Positions 4,381 to 47,832 of a stretch of 47,832 bases of DNA are shown in pieces. Each line of letters starts with the position of its first letter. Within the stretch, counting starts at the first letter, position 1. The DNA is from Phycisphaerales bacterium (GTDB lineage: Bacteria > Planctomycetota > Phycisphaerae > UBA1845 > Fen-1342): positions 1-47,832 of the forward strand of contig PMMM01000160.1 in the NCBI GenBank assembly GCA_003162245.1, in the 5' to 3' direction. The position numbers were made by a program, and so were the translations under genes. Under the pieces are notes generated by a model, which worked only from the letters and a program-made list of their open reading frames with translations, did not search any database and was not told the origin of the DNA.

Positions 4381-7300
4381 GTGATCAATCGCACGCGAGT
4401 GGCCATGGTGTGTGGTGTCGTCTGCTTGGGGACTCTGGGGTCGTGGATTCCGGCGGCTTCGGGCGCGATCACGTTCAGCAGCGGCGTGGGCGACGTCCTG
4501 GTCGAGATCGATCCTAACACCCCGGAGGATGCGGCGCTGCTAAATGAGGTCCGCGATTCGTTCACGGCGGGCTCGGAGTATTTCTGGAATGCCACCGAGA
4601 AGCAGCAGCGTTTCGGAAATGTCCGCGTGATCGTGCCCGAGAAATGGACCCCGCAGAGCAGCTACCAGTCGTTGGCGGGGATCGATGCGAGTGCCTGGGA
4701 TTTCCGAATCATCGGGACGTCGGCGCTGAGCACCTCCTATACCAGCGGCACGAGGGTATACCTGTACCGTCCACAGCTTCCTGGCGGCCGTGTGATTGTC
4801 CACGAGCTCGGACACGCGTTGTACGACCTGGGCGATGAGTACTGCCGTCGCGAACTGGCCTCTTCGCCCAGCGCTACCGCGACGTGGGCCCCCTGGAGAT
4901 GGTACTTCAAGTGGGGTGGGGAGTGGGTACGGTGCACAGCGCGTGGCGGAGTGAGCTGGACGGAGGAATGGATGTGGGTCAGCCCCAATCCGTACGATCC
5001 GAACGATGTGCACAACCATTGGCCGGGCGAGACTCTCAACAACCCGGCAGATAACCATGCCAGCATCATGTGGTATCAGTGGGATGACCCCATTCGACGT
5101 TTTTGCGGCGCCGACCCCAATGACCCGTCCAACGCGCATACCGCGTTTGCCAATACCGAGCAAGACCGCAGGCATGGCCACTCCTGCTGGGACGAGATGA
5201 TCGGCAAGCAGGGGCTTGGGCGCCCCGGGGCGGCCGGCACCACGACGATTGCCTACGCCGCGCCGACGGTTACATTTCACCAAGGAGGTACCCGCGCGCC
5301 GGAGATCATGTTGCTCCTTGACCGCTCCGGCTCCATGGGCGACACGCTGAAGTTCCTGTCCGCGGATACGATTCCGCGGCGGTTGAGCTACGAGCAGTGC
5401 ATCGATCCCGTCCTGGAAATGCAGGCGAATGCCAAGGCCGGGGGCAGTGAGAAAGACCGCTCGTCAAAGATGGAAGCCGCCAAGTCGGCCGCATCGCAGT
5501 TTGTGGACTTGGCCGACGTAGGCCGGATCGGCGTGGCGGCGTACTCCACCACGGCGTCCCTGTTGTCCGGGCTGCTGGACATCAGCGTCGCGGCCAGCAA
5601 GACGCAACTGAAGTCGGCTATTTCCGGGCTCTACCCGACCGACTCCACGAGCATCGGCGCGGGCCTGCAGGTGGCCTACAACGAGTTGCACAGCCACGGC
5701 GACGCCACCAAACCCCGGGCGATTGTTCTGCTCACGGATGGCCTGCAGAACACCTCGCCGGATCCGAGCGCCGTCATGCCCAGCATCATGGCCGACAAGA
5801 TCACGCTGTACACGATCGGCCTTGGGCGCGATGTCGATTCCAGCTACTTGCAGGGGCTGGCTGCGGAGACCCCCGGCGGCGCCTACTACTTTAGTCCGTC
5901 ACAGCAGGACCTGGTGACCATCTACCAGGCCATCCGCGGGCAAAGCCAGCAGAGCGCGCAGACGATTGGCTCGAGCGCACAGAGCCTGCCAGCCGCCACC
6001 ACCCAGGTCACCAATTACGTCTTGGACAGCAGTCTGGCAAGCGTTTCGTTCACGCTGACGGCGAGCAGCACGGCAGCACTGGACCTCGTTGCTGTGGCGC
6101 CAGATGGCACGCGCATGGACCAGGCATACGCGCAGGCCAACCCCACGCTTGCGGAGTTTGTTCGGAGTGCCACGTACCTCCTGCTCAAGATCAAGGAGCC
6201 GATGGCGGGGCAGTGGCAGGTTGAGAACATCAACCGCGGCACGAGTTCCATCAACGCCGTGCTGATCGCCGGGGCCGAAGCCGGCATACGGCTCGCGGCG
6301 GCCACGGCGGTTACCGGCGTTAAGTACCCCGAGCCGGTTCGAATCATCGCCAAGATCACGCGACTTGAGCCCATTATCATGGCGACTGGGGAGGCGGACA
6401 TTGTGGATCCCAATGGCGTTAAGACCACGATCCCTTTGAACGACCTGGGGCTCAATGGCGATCGCGTCCCATACGACGGACAGTATGAGGGCTTGTTCTC
6501 TGCGTACACGGGCAACGGGGTGTACACGATTACCGTGCGGGTAAACAACAATGCCGGTACCGCCGCGGAGGGTCCCGTGGGAAGCGGGGCCGAGCCTGAG
6601 GCGGACAACGATGGGGTGCTGCCGCCGGACAAGGGCCGCGTCTCTGAGAACTTCCAGCGAGAAGCCATCGCGCCGTCGGTGACGGTGAGCGGGTACAAGG
6701 CCGGAGTTGATAAAATGCCTCCGGGCGACGTGGACACGCTAAGCGCCGCTCGGACCGGTCAGTCGGACGTGATGCTTACCTGGATGGCTCCCGGTGATGA
6801 TGGCTTCAACGGCCAAGCGACCGCCTACGATATTCGCTACTCGGTCGCTCCGTTGAATGCCAACAACTGGGACGGCGCGACACGCTTGCCCAGCCCGCCG
6901 ACCCCGGCCGCGGCGGGTACCGGGCAGCAGTATGTCGCCGCGAACGTGCCCGCTCAAACCCTGTTCTTCGCCCTGCGCGCGACCGATGACGCGAATAACG
7001 TGTCCGACCTCTCCAACGTCGCCAGCGCGGCGATGGCGGTGGTGGCCGTGGACTCAGATGGCGACGGCACACCGGATTCTCTGGATGGGTGTCCGAACGA
7101 TCCGAAAAAGACCGAACCCGGCATTTGCGGTTGTGGGGCTTCAGAGACCGACTCCGATGGCGATGGTACGCCGGACTGTATCGATGCGTGCCCGAGCGAT
7201 CCGACGAAGATCGCTCCGGGTGCGTGTGGCTGTGGCACCCCGGACACGGATACGGATGGCGATGGCGTCCCCGACTGCAAGGACGGCTGCCCCGATGATC

Positions 7301-7863: not shown

Positions 7864-8502
7864 GTGCGGCAGATACTCGCCCACGCGGCTCCTACGCGCG
7901 TGCCCACCGGCGTCCAGGCCTTCAGCGGCAGCGAAATCGGACGGCCGGTCTGTAGTGGCATCAACAAGAACGACTTTCGCGACTTCTACGCGGCGATCTG
8001 CCTGGCGGGCATGCGGCTGGGCGAGGCCCGTCATCTGACCCGGAACGATGTCGATTTCACCAACAAGGTCATCCTCATCCGTCCTGGGCGAAAGGGTCGG
8101 TCGTTCTGGCGGACGAAGACCAAGTTCTCCGTCCGCCGGATCGCAATCGGGCCGGAGCTGATGCTAATCTTGCAGCGTCTCCGCCAGAAGAGCCGCAGCG
8201 GGCTTTGGGTGTTCGATAGCAAACGCGGCACGCAGGTGGGCGTGAACACGCCGACCGCCCGGCTGCGCGACATCTACGAGGAACTTGGCTTCCAGAAGCG
8301 CTACGTGCTGCACTCGCTGCGGAGACACTGGGCGAGCACGGTCGCCGAGCAAGGGCTCGCCTGGAAGCTGATGATCAAGATGTTCGGACACAGCAACTTC
8401 GAGCTGATCCTGTCCATCTACTACGCCCAGAACGACGACGCCCGGCTGGTCGCTGAAGCGTGCAAGATCGACTTCGGCCTCAATCTGCCCAAGACGGCGT
8501 AG
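7864..8502 (+). CDS. Tyrosine recombinase catalytic domain, N-terminally truncated
   Basis: The 212 residues hold the catalytic core of a phage-type integrase: the first arginine in GMRLGEARHL, HSLRRHW (HxxR), FGHSN (third-box histidine) and a tyrosine in SIYYAQ. The N-terminal arm-binding and SAM-like core-binding domains are missing. The frame is open only back to 7798, with TPEDVRQILAHA just before the GTG, text normally found at the domain junction. It therefore looks like the surviving 3' part of an integrase gene. It runs toward the tRNA-Gly gene 237 bp downstream. Activity is doubtful without the DNA-binding N-terminus. Confidence 0.8.
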   Translation: MRQILAHAAPTRVPTGVQAFSGSEIGRPVCSGINKNDFRDFYAAICLAGMRLGEARHLTRNDVDFTNKVILIRPGRKGRSFWRTKTKFSVRRIAIGPELMLILQRLRQKSRSGLWVFDSKRGTQVGVNTPTARLRDIYEELGFQKRYVLHSLRRHWASTVAEQGLAWKLMIKMFGHSNFELILSIYYAQNDDARLVAEACKIDFGLNLPKTA

Positions 8503-8695
8503 CCCACCAACATGGGGACTGGTCCGCACGTGTGATCGCAAGCACGAGAGCGCGATCCGCTATCCGCTTCAGTGGTAGACGGCCGGTCTACCACGGGTCC
8601 GCGTGTTCAATTCCGCTCTCGGTCTTCTCTCGGTTCGCAGGTAAGTAACGGCATCCAAAGGGATTGAATGCGTATCCAACGGGATCGAGAAGGAC

Positions 8696-8723
8696 TTGAC
8701 GCCGGAGCGTAACTCTCGATAAT
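8696..8723 (+). promoter_or_regulatory. Promoter for tRNA-Gly
   Basis: TTGACG at 8696-8701 and GATAAT at 8718-8723 are separated by 16 bp and end 16 bp before the tRNA 5' end, a good sigma-70-type arrangement. Confidence 0.6.
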
Positions 8724-8739
8724 TGCAGGAAATAAGGCT

Positions 8740-8811
<72 letters not shown>

Positions 8812-26401: not shown

Positions 26402-26545
26402 TGTTTTTTTGCCAGATTCTTGCCAAAACCAGTCTGGAAACACACCGGAACTCAGTCCTGCGTCCAGTCCGGAGTCAGTGCATAAGCTGCGGAATAAAAT
26501 ACACTTAACTCTTGCTGCACAAGTAGTTAAGAACGCCCCGTTCTG

Positions 26546-26589
26546 GCTTCGCAAGCTGGACGTCGTGGGTTCGAATCCCATCGCCCGCT
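26546..26589 (+). repeat. Right copy of tRNA-Gly 3' half, candidate attR
   Basis: This is a 44-bp direct repeat of 8768-8811 with one mismatch, containing the anticodon loop (here TTCGCAA), variable region, T-arm and acceptor 3' strand but no 5' half. It cannot be a working tRNA. It marks the right border of a possible integrated element or of one that has since decayed. Confidence 0.7.
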
Positions 26590-26688
26590 ACAATCTCGTC
26601 TAAATCAACCGCTTATGGCAGATCCATCGTTTCTGAGTTGGGCTCGGTTCTGAGGAAAACGGAGCCCGTTGCGTCTCGTTAAGTCCCG

Positions 26689-27125: not shown

Positions 27126-27298
27126 TATACTTCTTCCGGTCGGTTTGCTGAACCGGGTCGTTCGCGACGCTTGTTTCTGTCCCGCACTTCCTTGATCACC
27201 CACCAACCTTCTCGGCCGGAACTTCGGCCGCTTTCAGACACGCGACCCTGAAAGTCAAACAACGGGTCGCAGCCATGCTTTGGAAAAGCGAGAGCAGA
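27126..27298 (+). promoter_or_regulatory. Promoter -10 and structured 5' leader of first RRM gene
   Basis: TATACT at 27126-27131 is followed after 4 nt by a run of hairpins: CCGGT/ACCGG (27136-27140 with 27152-27156), GTCG-TTCG-CGAC (27157-27168, a UNCG tetraloop), CGGCCG-GAACTT-CGGCCG (27213-27230) and GCGACCC/GGGTCGC around a 15-nt loop (27242-27270). The same elements, with compensating changes, precede the second RRM gene at 29691-29859. This points to a functional leader RNA controlling expression, possibly with temperature or by the protein itself. Confidence 0.7.
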
Positions 27299-27574
27299 AT
27301 GGGTAAGAGACTGTATGTTGGGAATCTGGGTTACACCGTCACGAGCGCCGACCTCGAGCAGCTATTCGCGCCGCACGGAGCCGTGCAGAACGCAATGGTG
27401 TGCGAGGACCGCGACGCGGGCCGCAGCAAGGGCTTTGGGTTCGTGGAGATGGGTACCGACGAAGAGGCCACCAAAGCCATCGCCGCGCTGAACGGCCAGG
27501 ACCACGACGGCCGTGCGCTGACTGTGAATGAAGCCAAGCCGCGCGAAAGCCGCGGCACGTACGGGCGGCGCTAA
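27299..27574 (+). CDS. Small RRM-type RNA-binding protein
   Basis: The 91-residue protein is one RNA-recognition motif: RNP2 is LYVGNLGY (residues 4-11) and RNP1 is KGFGFVEM (about 44-51), with the usual AIAALNGQ helix and a short glycine/arginine tail. Such single-RRM proteins in cyanobacteria and planctomycetes bind mRNA, and many are cold-induced. It is 78% or so alike by eye to the second copy at 29860. A strong hairpin terminator follows, so it is transcribed alone under its long leader. Confidence 0.93.
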   Translation: MGKRLYVGNLGYTVTSADLEQLFAPHGAVQNAMVCEDRDAGRSKGFGFVEMGTDEEATKAIAALNGQDHDGRALTVNEAKPRESRGTYGRR

Positions 27575-28206: not shown

Positions 28207-29370
28207 TTACGCTGACATGCCTCGTCGCTGCTGCGAATCCCCACGCGGAACGGCCACGGTCTGCAGCGCCGCGCGCAGCAGCCGCTCGATGCCCCGCAGG
28301 TTCGCGCGCTCCTGCGCGGAACAGAACGACACGGCGGTGCCGCTGGCCCCCGCCCGTCCCGTGCGGCCGATCCGGTGCACGTACGTCTCCGGATCCGGCG
28401 TCAGGTCATAGTTGAACACCTGCGCAATGTCGTCGACGTCGAGGCCGCGGGCCGCGATGTCGGTCGCGACGAGCACGGGGGTCTGCGCGGACCGAAACTC
28501 CGCCAGCGCCCGGGTGCGGGCGCCCTGGCTCTTGTTGCCGTGCAGCGCCGCGGCGCGCACCCCGGCGCGCAGGAGGTGCCGCGTGAGCTTGTCCGCGCCG
28601 TGCTTGGTGCGCGTAAAGACCAGCGCTCGGGCGCGCGGCGTACGCGCCAACAAGCGCGTGAGCAGCGTGGGCTTTTCCGGCTGCTCCACGTGGTAGACCC
28701 AGTGCGCCACCGTCTCAGCGGGTGCCGAGACGCGGGCGACCTGCACCGAAACTGGCTGGTGCAGGATGTCGTTCGCAAGTTTGCGGATCGCGTCGGGCAT
28801 CGTCGCCGCAAACAGCAGGGTCTGACGTTGCGCCGGCACCTGCGCGAGAATCCGGCGGATGTCGGGCAGGAAGCCCATGTCGAGCATCCGGTCGGCTTCG
28901 TCGAGTACGAGGATTTCAACGCCCGCCAGGCTTACCAGACGTTGCCCCATGAGATCCAGCAGGCGTCCTGGCGTGGCGACCAGCACATCGACGCCGGCCC
29001 GCAGCGCACGCGCCTGCGAGTTCTGGTTGACGCCGCCGTACACGACGGTCTGCCGCACGCCGGTGTATTGGCCGTACGTGCGAAAGCTGTCGTGGATCTG
29101 CTGGGCGAGCTCGCGGGTGGGACACAGGATCAAGGCGCGGATTCGGCCGGCGGGAGCGGTTCCACGCGGGGCGCCGTCACTCAGACGCTGGAGGATTGGG
29201 ACGGCAAACGCGGCCGTCTTGCCGGTGCCCGTTTGGGCACAGCCGAGCACGTCGCGGCCGGCGAGGACGTGCGGAATGGCTTGGAACTGGATGGGGGTGG
29301 GGGTACGGTAGCCTGCGGTGCGTACAGCACGCAGGAGCGGCTCGGTGAGCCGCAAATCTTCAAAACGCAT
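28207..29370 (-). CDS. RhlE-type DEAD-box RNA helicase
   Basis: All core motifs are present in 387 residues: Q motif (PTPIQ, 24-28), motif I AQTGTGKT (45-52), PTRELA, TPGR, DEAD (157-160), motif III as AAT rather than the usual [20 protein letters not shown] and [10 protein letters not shown]. The C-terminal extension is short, as in minimal RhlE proteins. It uses ATP to unwind short RNA duplexes and is often cold-induced. Its place between two RRM genes suggests a shared role in RNA remodelling. The AAGAGAGAGA stretch before the ATG can act as ribosome site. Confidence 0.93.
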
Positions 29371-29859: not shown

Positions 29860-30147
29860 ATGGGCAAGAAACTGTATGTCGGAAACCTGGGCTACAACGT
29901 CACGAGCGCGGACCTCCAGCAGCTCTTCGCGGCGCACGGCACCGTGCAGAGTGCGCAGGTCATCGAAGACCGCGACGCCGGCCGCAGCAAGGGCTTCGGC
30001 TTCGTCGAGATGAGCTCGGACGAAGAGGCCCAGAAGGCCATCGCCGCGCTGAACGGACAGATGCACGGCGAACGCGCTCTGACCGTCAACGAAGCCAAGC
30101 CGCGCGAGAATCGCGGCGGCGGCGGCGGCGGCTACGGCCGACGCTAA
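29860..30147 (+). CDS. Small RRM-type RNA-binding protein, second copy
   Basis: The 95-residue protein repeats the architecture of the first copy: RNP2 LYVGNLGY, RNP1 KGFGFVEM, AIAALNGQ and a glycine-rich tail (GGGGGGYGRR). The start follows AGAGAGAGCAGCA. It is probably a paralogue from local duplication, since the leader is duplicated too. It likely binds single-stranded RNA in the cytoplasm, possibly as an RNA chaperone with the neighbouring helicase. Confidence 0.93.
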   Translation: MGKKLYVGNLGYNVTSADLQQLFAAHGTVQSAQVIEDRDAGRSKGFGFVEMSSDEEAQKAIAALNGQMHGERALTVNEAKPRENRGGGGGGYGRR

Positions 30148-33720: not shown

Positions 33721-33982
33721 TGCTGCGGTGATCTTCAACCGAGGCAGTTCACCTGCCCGCTCCGCAAGGAGAACGGCGCACGGTAAAGGACAGGGGAAAC
33801 CGAGGGGGTCAGCCCGCGACCGGACCGCATACGACTAAAGTCCGATAGTCGTGTGACCAATGACGAATTGCACGCCGGCACGTCTTGTGACATCCTCTCG
33901 GTATGTAGATATCTGGGTGTTTTGGACCGTGAGGGTGGCCCGTGGGTTGAGCCGGCACGGTCCTGATCCGCGAGGGACGACG

Positions 33983-34483
33983 ATGTTGCAGGTTGAACTG
34001 CGAAAGAAGCTGGGGGCCGGCAAGCCGACCCTGGAAACCTGTGCCGAGATGGACGCCTGTGGCGCCCTGCGGACCGTCGCCGACACCGCCGAGAACGTCT
34101 TGATCGTGGACAATGAAGAAACGAGCCGCGAGTTGGCGGCCGCGATCCTCGCCTATCAGGGCTATCGTGTGCATACTGCGGCAAACAGCCTTGAGGCGCT
34201 CACGACTCTGCGGCGGCAGCGCGTGGACCTGCTGATCGCCGGCCTGGAGATGCCGCTGCTCGGCGGACGCTGGCTGGCCGGACGCGCCCGGCGGATACGT
34301 CCACACCTGCCGGTGCTCTTTATGGCCGGTCGCGCCGCGACAACCGATGCCGAACGACATGTGCGCGGGGGGCAATGCGCCGTGTTGCACAGACCATTTT
34401 CATTCGTGGGTTTGGTAGAGCTGGTGGAGGACCTGCTCACGCACAGCACTGTATGCGCGCGTTTCCCGCGCGCCGTGGGTTGA
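33983..34483 (+). CDS. Pseudo-receiver: degenerate response-regulator protein
   Basis: The 166-residue protein is a paralogue of the next gene (same start MLQ.ELR..LG.G.PT.ET and fold) and forms a single receiver domain (about 37-155) without output domain. Three functional positions are altered: the phosphoacceptor is G87 (LLIAGLEMP) instead of D, the switch residue is A115 instead of S/T, and the lysine is R137 (HRPFS). The acidic pocket reads VDNEE. It therefore cannot be phosphorylated in the normal way and may act as a constitutive or competing partner. It keeps a full coding frame, which argues for function. Confidence 0.8.
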   Translation: MLQVELRKKLGAGKPTLETCAEMDACGALRTVADTAENVLIVDNEETSRELAAAILAYQGYRVHTAANSLEALTTLRRQRVDLLIAGLEMPLLGGRWLAGRARRIRPHLPVLFMAGRAATTDAERHVRGGQCAVLHRPFSFVGLVELVEDLLTHSTVCARFPRAVG

Positions 34484-34689
34484 CACTGCGTGGCTGATCC
34501 GTGTGGCGGCACCAGTTCCCGCCGGCCAACCGGTACGCCGGTCACGTACGACCAAAGTCGTATCTGTGTGCGACCAATAACCGATTGTGCGCTGCCCGAG
34601 GTTGTGGCATTCTTGATGTGTGGGTAGTGCGGAACGCTCGTCGCCACAGGTACACGGGACGCGGTTCTGCCGGCTTGTGAGACGCCGAG

Positions 34690-35190
34690 ATGCTGCAAAC
34701 GGAATTGCGAGAGCTGCTGGGAGTCGGGGAGCCGACTTCGGAAACGCGCGCCGAAATGGGAGCCTTCGGCGCTCCGTGGGCGGCCACCAGCGCAATCCGG
34801 ACCGTCCTCGTGGTCGACGATGACGAGACGATCCGCGAGCTGGTGGCCGCCGTTCTTGAATACCGGGGCTACAGGCTGCGTACGGCTGGAAGCGGTCTGG
34901 AAGGCCTGTCGATTCTGCGACAGCGGCGAGTGGACCTGCTGATTACCGACGTGGAAATGCCGCTGCTCGACGGGCGCCGGCTGGCTCGTCGGGCCCGGCG
35001 AATGCGGCCGCACCTGCCGATCCTCTTCGTGTCGGGCGGTACCGTGGCGGCCGGCGCCGAGCGTAGCATGCACGGTGGGCCCTGCGCCCTGCTGCGCAAG
35101 CCGTTCTCATTCGCGCGGCTGGTGAGTCTGGTCGAGGAGCTGCTCAGACGCAGCAGCGCTGCGGTCCAATCTCCAAGGGTCGCGGGCTGA
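34690..35190 (+). CDS. Single-domain response regulator receiver protein
   Basis: The 166 residues include a canonical receiver domain: acidic pocket VVDDDE (42-46), phosphoacceptor D87 in LLITDVEMP, S115 in FVSGG and K137 in RKPFS. A 35-residue N-terminal lead is shared with the degenerate paralogue upstream. There is no output domain, so it would act by protein-protein contact or as a phosphate relay. No histidine kinase is nearby. The 200-bp region upstream resembles that of the upstream paralogue (CGACCAAT motif), so gene and promoter were duplicated together. Confidence 0.87.
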   Translation: MLQTELRELLGVGEPTSETRAEMGAFGAPWAATSAIRTVLVVDDDETIRELVAAVLEYRGYRLRTAGSGLEGLSILRQRRVDLLITDVEMPLLDGRRLARRARRMRPHLPILFVSGGTVAAGAERSMHGGPCALLRKPFSFARLVSLVEELLRRSSAAVQSPRVAG

Positions 35191-35549
35191 GGCTGCGTTG
35201 GCGATAGACGGTCATGACGACTGGGGAGTTCGGCTTGTCGCCCGGTCGGCGCTATGGGCATTGGGTCGCGCCGGCCGGGCCGGATCGAAACCGCGGCTGT
35301 TGGAGGAAACTCGCCGGTCTGGCGAGACCGGACGAATGTGACGAAGAGCACGAGGCTGGTTGAGCCCTCCTGAGGAGCTTTCCAAGGCTCGTAACAACAC
35401 TCCCGCGTACGCGGCCCTTGTTGGTGCGTCCCGCCCTAAACAACGCACCGATAGGGGCCCATTTTTTCGGCGCAGGCCATCGGGCACGTCCCCCGCGGGC
35501 ACGCCGCGCCGGAGGTTCCCGAGCCGTACGCCGCGCTTATACTCGCGCC
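35191..35549. other. Gap; holds the promoter of the methyltransferase gene
   Basis: No gene is recognised. TATACT at 35538-35543 lies 6 nt before the downstream start codon. Confidence 0.45.
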
Positions 35550-36497: not shown

Positions 36498-36578
36498 TGC
36501 TCGCTTCCCACGGCGGTTTCAGAGGAAGCTCGACCCCGGCCGGGAGGGCGAGGCTCGTGCCGAGCCGCGCGGGGGCCG

Positions 36579-44716: not shown

Positions 44717-47700
44717 ATGAAGGGTTATGCAATCGGAGCGATCGTGCTGGCGCTGATACTCGCGTCCAGCGCGGGTGCCACAAACTTGGCTTTATGGACG
44801 TTTGAGACGAGCCTGCCCTTGACGGCCGGCCCGTTCACGCCTGAATCGGGCGTGTACAATCAGTTCCCGGGCCCTTCGGCTGCGCTCGGTTACCATGTTG
44901 GTGCGAGCACGTACAGCCACCCCGCGGGCAACGGGTCGGCGTCGTCTTTCAGCTCGAACACGTGGGCTGTCGGCGACTACTACCAGTTCAAGAGCCGAAC
45001 GTTCGGCTACGCGGGCGTGACGCTTGACTGGGATCAGACCAGCAGCAATACGGGGCCCGGGCAATTCGTGCTTCAGTACAGCACCGACGGCACCACGTTT
45101 ACCACGTCCGGCGCGCCGTACACCGTCTTGCCGAACGTGAATCCCCCGGGGGCGTGGAATGCCACGACGTACTACTCGAATTACCACTTCACGGTCCCTC
45201 TCACCACCGTAACCGCGTTGGACAACAAGGCGGCGGTCTACTTCCGCCTGACTGACAATTCGACCGTTAGCGCCAACGGCACCACCGTGGTGGCTGGCGG
45301 CACGGACCGCGTGGACAACTTCCAGATTGCCGCGACCGCGGATCCCAACGCGACCGGGGCATGTTGCACCGCCGGTGTGTGTACTGCCCCCGTGAGCCCG
45401 GCCAGTTGCGGCACGGGCGGCGGCCAGTACATGGGCAACAACACGATCTGCACAACGGGCCTGTGCAGCACCGACCCAACCGGCGCCTGCTGCGTCGGCA
45501 CGGTCTGCGCGCTCCAGACCCAATCGGTCTGCCTCGGCGCCAGTGGTGTATGGCAGGGCGCGGGCGTGCCGTGCTCGCCGAACCCCTGCCTGTTCGACAT
45601 GACCATCGCCCAGGCGAAGGCCTATCCCTCGGGCACGCCGGTCCGCATCGCGCATGTGATCGTGTCCAGCACTTTTGACCTGGTAAACAGCGCGACCTAC
45701 ATGAGCTTCCAGGTGCAGGACGCGACGGGCGGCATGACGGTGTGGGGCGTCAACGCGGACATCACCGCCCTGTTGGGCTACATCGGCGCAGGCGACGAGA
45801 CCACGCTGGAAGGCACGTACAGCCCCTACAACTGCCTGGGGGAGCTTGACGCGCCTTTCAACGTGCCTCCTCCAAATTACGGGCACCCGGGCATACCGAC
45901 CCCGATCGTGGTTCACGCCTCCGACTTCGCGGACGCGAGCTCGACCGCGGAGGGCTACGAGAGCAAGTTGGTCAGGGTAAACTGCCTGACCACGGCATCG
46001 ACTGGCACCTGGGCGTACGGCGTCAATTACACCGCCACAGATGCCACCGGCTCGCTGATCATCTACATCGCGAACGCCACCGACACCCTGGTCGGGCAGC
46101 CCATCCCGACGACCCCCTTCGACATGGTCGGCATCTTCAGCCAGTTCGACAGCGGCGGCACCTGCACCTTGGGCTATGAGCTTTTGCCGCGCCAACTGTC
46201 GGACGAGACTCTTGATCCCAACTGCATACCTGCGGGCGCTTGCTGCATCGGCGATCAATGCTCGATCACGACGCAGGTCGGCTGCAGCGGTACTTGGCAC
46301 GGCCTGGGCACGGACTGCACGCCGAATCCCTGCGTCGGTGCGTGCTGCCTGAATGGCGTGTGCTCGCTGGTTTTGCAAGCGGCGTGCACCACGCCCAGCA
46401 TCTTCCTGGGCAACGGGTCTGAGTGCCTCGTGGCCGTTTGCCCGACGCCCACGTTGGGCGGCGATCTGGCGCTCGGCCTGAATGACGGCCGGGCCTGGGT
46501 CACCGCGCAGCAGATTCGCAACGACGGCACGGGACAGGGCGTCCAGGTCGGCTCGTACAGCGCGGAGGAGTTCCTGCAGTCGATGGAATTCGATAACCTC
46601 ACCGGCGTTCAGCACTACGCGCACGGCAATCTGCTCGCCGTAGACTTCGGCGCCGGCGGCGGCGGGGTTGGTGCCCCACCGGCGTGCACCGACGCGAACC
46701 GTCCGGAAGAAGGCGCCAAGATCTTCAGCCTTGCTACGAACGGCTCGAATGGCGGCCAGTTGCTGTGGGACTTCAACTCGCGGGTCGGCAACCCGAACCC
46801 GCACAGCACGCAGTGCACGCGTGGCGGCGGGCTGAGCGTCAGCCCGAATAACCAGTACATCGCGTTCTGGGGCACCGACACGCGGAACCTGTACGTGCTC
46901 CGCTACCACGCCGGCAGCGGCGGGGGCAGCGGCGGGTCAATCAGCAATGAGTACATCTACGCGGGCCTGTCCGCGACGGCCGGCACCGGCACGATCGGCA
47001 CGACGTGGTACGACGACGACACGATTCTGGTCCTGTGCACGAGCACCGTCATGCGCGCGTCCCTGCTGTACTCGGTGGATTTCGACGGGACCAACTTCTC
47101 CAACCTGGTGCTGCGGCAAACCTTGTACCATGGCGTCGCCGGCACCGGCGGGACTCCCAGCCTCTTTACGGACATCGATTACAACCCCACCGTGTCGCCC
47201 TACGTGTTCTGCATGTACTCCAACCTGTATCTTAGCATCAGCTACACCAACATCGACGTGGTTGACCCCACCACCGGGTGGGGCATCGTTAAGCAGATCG
47301 CCCTCGGCGCGAACTACCTCGACCCCAACAATCCCACGTTTGCCAGTTGCAACACCGGCCGCGAGATCGCGCTCGGCCCCGACCACTACCTGTACATGGG
47401 GCAGTACGCGGGCTCCGGCGTGCCGCGCCCCTACGTTGACCGCCTCGACGCGGACAACGTTGCGGGCTGGGTCGACTACTCGAGTGTGAACTACTACGTG
47501 ATGTCGGCGAACCCGGTTTATGCCGCGTACAACGGATTGGACGTGGCGTTCGGCGCGCCCGGTGCGTGCTGCGCCGGCACGAACTGCGTCGGCGAGTTCT
47601 ACGAGCAGTACTGCATCGCCCACTACGCGGGGACCTTCAAGGGTGAGGGCGTGCTGTGCAGCTCGAACCCGTGCGCTCCGACCGGGGCCTGCTGCACCCC

Positions 47701-47832
47701 GGCTGGCGCTTGCTCGATCACGACGCAGGCAAACTGCCTGTCGCCGAACGTGTGGCACGGCGAATGGACGAGTTGCACGCCTAACAATTGCCCGCCCCCG
47801 GCGCAAACGGGTGCCTGCTGCTCCACCACCGG
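44717..47832 (+). CDS. Giant secreted protein with cysteine-rich GACC repeats, 3' end beyond window
   Basis: An unbroken frame of at least 1038 residues starts at an ATG after CAAGGA and has a signal peptide (YAIGAIVLALILASSAGA). Residues about 20-210 look like a beta-sandwich. Two cysteine modules follow (GACCTAGVC near 214, GACCVGTVC near 256), then an OB-fold-like region (about 295-495; VRIAHVIVSSTFDL, FQVQDATGGMTVWG), more modules near 505 and 542, a repeat-rich region of propeller-like text (560-940) and further modules from 949 to the edge. The module consensus is GACC-x4-6-C...GxWxGxGxxCxxNPC, six or more cysteines each, typical of Phycisphaerae surface proteins. Role: probably a cell-surface or secreted adhesive/structural protein. 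Confidence 0.88.
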   Translation, partial: MKGYAIGAIVLALILASSAGATNLALWTFETSLPLTAGPFTPESGVYNQFPGPSAALGYHVGASTYSHPAGNGSASSFSSNTWAVGDYYQFKSRTFGYAGVTLDWDQTSSNTGPGQFVLQYSTDGTTFTTSGAPYTVLPNVNPPGAWNATTYYSNYHFTVPLTTVTALDNKAAVYFRLTDNSTVSANGTTVVAGGTDRVDNFQIAATADPNATGACCTAGVCTAPVSPASCGTGGGQYMGNNTICTTGLCSTDPTGACCVGTVCALQTQSVCLGASGVWQGAGVPCSPNPCLFDMTIAQAKAYPSGTPVRIAHVIVSSTFDLVNSATYMSFQVQDATGGMTVWGVNADITALLGYIGAGDETTLEGTYSPYNCLGELDAPFNVPPPNYGHPGIPTPIVVHASDFADASSTAEGYESKLVRVNCLTTASTGTWAYGVNYTATDATGSLIIYIANATDTLVGQPIPTTPFDMVGIFSQFDSGGTCTLGYELLPRQLSDETLDPNCIPAGACCIGDQCSITTQVGCSGTWHGLGTDCTPNPCVGACCLNGVCSLVLQAACTTPSIFLGNGSECLVAVCPTPTLGGDLALGLNDGRAWVTAQQIRNDGTGQGVQVGSYSAEEFLQSMEFDNLTGVQHYAHGNLLAVDFGAGGGGVGAPPACTDANRPEEGAKIFSLATNGSNGGQLLWDFNSRVGNPNPHSTQCTRGGGLSVSPNNQYIAFWGTDTRNLYVLRYHAGSGGGSGGSISNEYIYAGLSATAGTGTIGTTWYDDDTILVLCTSTVMRASLLYSVDFDGTNFSNLVLRQTLYHGVAGTGGTPSLFTDIDYNPTVSPYVFCMYSNLYLSISYTNIDVVDPTTGWGIVKQIALGANYLDPNNPTFASCNTGREIALGPDHYLYMGQYAGSGVPRPYVDRLDADNVAGWVDYSSVNYYVMSANPVYAAYNGLDVAFGAPGACCAGTNCVGEFYEQYCIAHYAGTFKGEGVLCSSNPCAPTGACCTPAGACSITTQANCLSPNVWHGEWTSCTPNNCPPPAQTGACCSTT

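Follow-up and report, generated by a model that had tools for sequence, protein, structure and literature searches.

The tandem pair and its upstream DNA

On the forward strand of a Phycisphaerales contig (PMMM01000160.1, assembly GCA_003162245.1), whose positions 1 to 47,832 were analysed and are called the window here, two genes coding for proteins of 166 residues follow each other, the upstream gene at 33983-34483 and the downstream gene at 34690-35190. Both proteins are stand-alone receivers with a 37-residue N-terminal extension (33983-34093 and 34690-34800, respectively) and a receiver domain (34097-34426 and 34804-35133), which in a PF00072 search of the genome scores 59.7 bits in the upstream and 80.8 bits in the downstream copy. 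As Pfam Response_reg matches the two proteins score 59 and 79.9 bits, both exceeding the curated cut-off of 30.2 bits. The extension has no Pfam match. The proteins align from end to end without a gap, with 92 of 166 residues identical (19 of 37 in the extension), and the genes are identical at 339 of 501 nucleotides, stop codon included. The coordinates, lengths and frames in the original prediction, and its end-to-end alignment, were confirmed.

The downstream copy has the complete set of active-site residues (the acidic pair D43 and D44, the phosphorylatable D87, S115 at the T/S position and K137) and no output domain, the receiver family being its only Pfam match over the cut-off; it is a canonical single-domain receiver. 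The upstream copy has D43, N44, G87, A115 and R137. The alignment bears out the three substitutions originally predicted, at 87, 115 and 137, but the statement that every phosphorylation residue had been lost holds for four of the five positions: the second acidic residue, absent from the earlier list, is lost too, and D43 is retained.

The pair is a tandem duplication of a gene together with its upstream region, the duplicated unit covering about 33807-34483 and 34524-35190. The predicted similarity of the upstream DNA is real: the local alignment of 33807-33911 with 34524-34626 scores 52, which is reached by none of 1000 dinucleotide shuffles (best shuffle 50). The most similar part is a 41-base block at 33830-33870 (+), containing ACGACTAAAGTCCGAT, and at 34547-34587 (+), containing ACGACCAAAGTCGTAT. 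Identity in this block, which was picked after the alignment was seen, is 30 of 41 bases and exceeds that at the fourfold-degenerate sites (32 of 60; binomial p 0.0075). The likeness may in part be plain common descent. The core ACGACYAAAGTCSNAT occurs at only two sites in the whole genome, one before each copy, and was for that reason rejected as a recognisable regulon element. A search for a -35/-10 sigma-70 promoter found none.

A comparison with a genome of the same genus, G001, shows that a block at 33722-35530 containing the pair is absent from the matching flanks of that genome. DNA similarity to G001 extends up to position 33721 and starts again at 35531, each side on a separate G001 contig; the gene before the pair is 94% and the gene after it 82% identical. 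Beside the first of these flanking genes G001 carries an oxidoreductase gene, the counterpart of which (95% identical) lies on another contig in the present genome. There is thus a rearrangement, insertion or loss at the locus relative to G001. Apart from a chance-like match of 36 bases no remnants of the pair were found in G001, and tblastn of both proteins against the two flanking G001 contigs gave nothing convincing.

Some other features of the window were noted in passing. A phage-integrase-family gene (7864-8811, +) lies directly before a complete tRNA-Gly (CCC) gene. The stretch 26540-26600 (+) resembles the 3' half of a tRNA, with the T-arm GGTTCGAATCC at 26568-26578; ARAGORN and Rfam both report no tRNA here, and the stretch may be what is left of an attachment site. 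A DEAD-box RNA helicase gene (28207-29370, -) is flanked by two genes for single-domain RRM proteins that are alike in sequence (27275-27574, +, and 29860-30147, +). The 32 bases at 36536-36567 are 97% identical to 927-958 of locus L137 in G001, outside any synteny, perhaps as a dispersed repeat; and the end of the window, 47664-47832, matches several tandem places (4791-5196 of the same locus) upstream of a spermine-synthase-like gene, which suggests a multi-copy intergenic repeat.

Class, predicted fold and relatives

A pseudo-receiver is defined in PMC12632262 as a protein recognised as a receiver which is without any one of the five conserved residues. By this definition, as given there, the upstream copy is a pseudo-receiver, its PF00072 match being 59 bits against a cut-off of 30.2 and its residues N44, G87, A115 and R137 departing from DD, D, T/S and K. 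It also belongs to the subset of aspartate-less receivers (ALRs), since the phosphorylatable aspartate is replaced (G87) and the receiver fold is kept in the predicted structure. An AlphaFold2 model of the upstream copy, made with 50 sequences, has a mean pLDDT of 84.0 and a pTM of 0.79, with averages above 90 over residues 41-110 and 131-150 and lower values at residues 121-130 (73) and 1-30 (51-67), where the extension is modelled as two short helices of low confidence. The model has the (beta-alpha)5 order of strands and helices of a receiver, with a short fourth helix (a4). The best PDB matches are receivers both by fold and by sequence, and the first sequence match carries the description of a C-terminal domain from a hybrid sensor kinase. 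The original reading of this copy as a pseudo-receiver therefore stands, with the definition, an intact predicted fold and losses concentrated at the active site all in its favour.

According to the surveys cited in PMC12632262, pseudo-receivers and aspartate-less receivers account for about 6% of the receivers in bacteria and about 4% when all receivers are counted. In the present genome the PF00072 search gave 65 receiver matches, all of which were read. D, T/S and K are present in 58; two have D and T in a match that stops before K; and one has A at the T position. Three weak matches (C188, C167 and C253, 28.2-30.0 bits) also depart from the canonical state. The upstream copy, without D, T/S and K, is the sole full-length Asp-less match well above the cut-off among the 65, and its residue state is not a chance state for this genome.

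In a tree from which the weak matches C188 and C167 had been dropped, the two copies group together with a support of 0.999. Support drops to 0.35 at the next node and is 0.92 for the wider group, to which receivers from other proteins of the same genome and of its relatives belong. The nearest receivers to the downstream copy are L142 (45% identity) and L143 (46%). The frames of six near relatives were read by eye: five of the receivers (L142, L143, L145, L146 and L147) end a histidine-kinase-like protein, and that of L149 starts a different one. The closest receivers in sequence are C-terminal receivers of hybrid histidine kinases of the PAS-HisKA-HATPase type, a domain make-up also read by eye, and the stand-alone receiver is likely to derive from a hybrid kinase, judging from these similarities. 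Unlike those C-terminal receivers, the receiver here stands alone and is duplicated.

Neither copy gave a match at orthologue level across the N-terminal extension; the best matches are receivers in other proteins. The search of the own genome gave none. Among 101 relatives only the own genome passes at 1e-15 (at most the 36 best candidates per genome), and among 114 genomes of the order one passes at 1e-20 (32 best candidates per genome). In the phylum 13 of 392 genomes pass 1e-20, and in the class, using a two-copy profile, 14 of 397, the own genome included both times; no orthologue was found among the nine best candidates per genome, the other matches being receivers inside open frames of 252-1888 residues that do not fully cover the extension. 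A family search with the downstream copy passed 1e-14 in 21 of 27 genomes with generic receivers and no orthologue, and a scan of contigs from 84,980 species gave no orthologue among the best 80 of 230 matches. The large scans gave full scores to the top candidates of each genome only, and a miss in them is therefore no proof of absence.

Selection, drift and decay of the upstream copy

The changes in the upstream copy were compared with a set of relatives, 115 of 117 of which could be aligned to the downstream copy; these are not independent, several genera among them being closely related. The loci L016-L095 were found with peptide patterns of the canonical copy that include active-site residues, and the near-100% conservation of the active site in the 115 relatives is therefore partly built in; the census of the own genome is free of this bias. 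Twenty-one non-catalytic sites are conserved in at least 60% of the relatives and have the same residue in the downstream copy. Of these, 18 are retained in the upstream copy, which has lost 69, 86 and 88; two of the lost sites flank position 87. The losses thus amount to 4 of 5 catalytic sites against 3 of 21 other conserved sites (one-sided Fisher p 0.010), a pattern which argues against a decaying gene.

How much of this could arise by drift was estimated by simulating neutral change in a copy of the downstream gene. At 81 substitutions at least 18 of the 21 sites are kept in 12% of the runs (18 are kept in 11% of those in which four active-site residues are lost), which leaves room for decay; the figure falls to 2% at 120, 0.15% at 162 and 0.02% at 224 substitutions. 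The silent distance between the copies is 0.79 per fourfold site (bootstrap 0.46-1.34), and therefore about 200 substitutions, corresponding to half the distance, are expected if the upstream copy has been neutral since the duplication. Even with every difference assigned to the upstream copy, the observed identity has a probability of 0.001-0.002 after about 200 neutral substitutions. Given the estimated silent distance, this copy is too conserved for neutral drift since the duplication; at the lower bootstrap limit of 0.46 such drift is possible. The dN/dS of the pair is 0.34 for the whole gene and 0.30 for the receiver.

The strongest rival to a functional protein is a decaying duplicate, which was selected for a while after the duplication, recently lost its function and has the active-site changes as the first signs of this. 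With lengths of 0.354 and 0.178, the upstream branch is about double the downstream one, which would agree with relaxed constraint. Of the 45 receiver sites that differ, 30 have the downstream and 12 the upstream residue as the one preferred among relatives, with 3 ties; G69 and D94, common in relatives, are gone from the upstream copy; and the lack of an orthologue in the genomes searched points the same way. The upstream frame has no frameshift, stop or indel, which speaks against decay, but the open frame was rejected as weak evidence because stops are rare in a GC-rich gene: the probability of no stop after 81 neutral substitutions is about 0.25. Against decay there are also the retained upstream block and the rejection, at the estimated silent distance, of neutrality for the whole time. 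We read the data as those of a copy that has probably been selected during most of its existence, the constraint on it being weaker or altered. A recent loss of function is possible, and we regard the decaying duplicate as a serious contender with about one chance in three.

Possible function of the aspartate-less copy

We favour a model that starts from the tandem duplication of a stand-alone receiver gene, its nearest relatives being C-terminal receivers of hybrid histidine kinases, along with the promoter region. Phosphorylatability was retained in the downstream copy. The upstream copy turned into an aspartate-less pseudo-receiver: the phospho-Asp went, as did one of the metal-binding Asp residues, Thr/Ser and Lys, but the scaffold of a receiver is preserved, and so is most of the surface that faces the kinase. 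The upstream protein is presumed to be expressed, to fold and to work without phosphorylation. Most likely it would occupy the docking site of the (hybrid) kinase serving its downstream partner and in this way damp the phosphorylation of the partner, as FixT does with FixL and Osp with CckA. We give a duplication-derived, phosphorylation-independent pseudo-receiver, most likely acting as a kinase-docking antagonist of its partner, a probability of roughly 40%.

Helices a1 and a5 and the b5-a5 loop of receivers contact kinases, and the a4 region is part of the usual a4-b5-a5 dimer face. Between the two copies 10 of 16 residues are identical in a1, 10 of 15 in a5, 14 of 18 in the a3 stretch and 6 of 16 in the a4 region, and the b5-a5 loop, PFSF, is the same in both. 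At the four kinase-specificity positions two residues are identical, one change is conservative (I/V), and position 48 has changed, from I48 in the downstream copy to S in the upstream copy. This pattern fits an upstream protein whose output face has changed but which may still dock on the kinase, as is the case for FixT and Osp. The original prediction that both proteins bind the same partner has indirect support from the kinase-contact elements, which are no less alike than the whole proteins; the change at position 48 goes against it. No Pfam kinase domain was found among 20 frames of the window that were scanned.

Another possibility is that the upstream protein forms a heterodimer with the downstream receiver in its phosphorylated state, or else attaches to that receiver's output target, and serves in this way as a constitutive or coincidence-detecting subunit. 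The two proteins are paralogues with a common N-terminal extension, and BldM/WhiI and CmrR/CmrT are precedents according to PMC12632262 and PMC12548384. However, the a4 region is conserved less than any other part of the receiver, neither copy has an output domain, and at position 134 (V in the upstream and L in the downstream copy) both are without the aromatic residue of the Y-T coupling rule as formulated in PMC12632262. We find a heterodimer or output partner improbable. Less probable still is a new input, with the upstream copy sensing a ligand or redox state through its altered pocket or its four cysteines (C20, C26, C132 and C158, against C132 alone downstream): PMC7078487 describes Caulobacter FixT as a single-domain receiver that binds an Fe-S cluster through four cysteines, but the spacing here is unlike its C53/C56/C59/C64 motif, two of the cysteines sit in the low-confidence N-terminus, and at least three are gained in 9-37% of the neutral runs, so that the gain is within chance and was rejected as redox evidence.

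The putative kinase-docking antagonist has its closest parallels in FixT (Caulobacter, Sinorhizobium) and Osp (Rhodobacter sphaeroides), unphosphorylated single-domain receiver-like proteins described as direct kinase inhibitors (PMC7078487; PMC9430884); the parallel is drawn from the descriptions of these proteins. Unlike these, the upstream copy has a phosphorylatable tandem paralogue and the pair has the 37-residue extension; also, Osp keeps its Asp, according to PMC9430884, and the upstream copy does not. The Clostridioides difficile regulators CmrR and CmrT are likewise encoded together, one being canonical and the other aspartate-less, but as described in PMC12548384 they are DNA-binding regulators of the OmpR family with a kinase in the operon and are unlikely to be duplicates of each other, whereas both copies here are stand-alone receivers and clear duplicates.

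With the ALRs in general the upstream copy shares a receiver fold without the phospho-Asp, the first acidic residue being kept and the second lost. This is the commonest state among ALRs as surveyed in PMC4395418, where the change from D to Gly accounts for 11% of the substitutions; for the Gly type no characterised member of known structure existed in 2015. What sets the upstream copy apart is that it lies in tandem with a canonical stand-alone receiver of which it is a duplicate, the two forming a matched pair with shared upstream DNA; it has also lost T/S and K, and it keeps P at D+4 and G at D+8. The class is thus already known and the pair is no new kind of system. A published duplicated pair of stand-alone receivers of this sort was not found in a limited search of the open-licence literature.

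More speculatively, the pair could be very young and restricted to the species, the duplication having made a receiver's own dedicated antagonist. The antagonist and its sister would then compete for one and the same kinase, dosage would set the pathway gain, and each gene would have its own copy of the same promoter element. We consider this doubtful, at little better than one chance in five.

According to a 2025 review (PMC12632262), the way in which pseudo-receivers of bacteria are activated and shut off is still a mystery. A useful feature of the present case is the canonical sister next door, of equal length and with the N-terminal extension and upstream DNA common to both; residue swaps between the two would therefore reveal which changes outside the active site are relevant. 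Within the biology of the organism this is an ordinary gene pair. Should it prove to be a young antagonist pair, it would show, as a natural experiment, the states before and after the change of a receiver into a pseudo-receiver.
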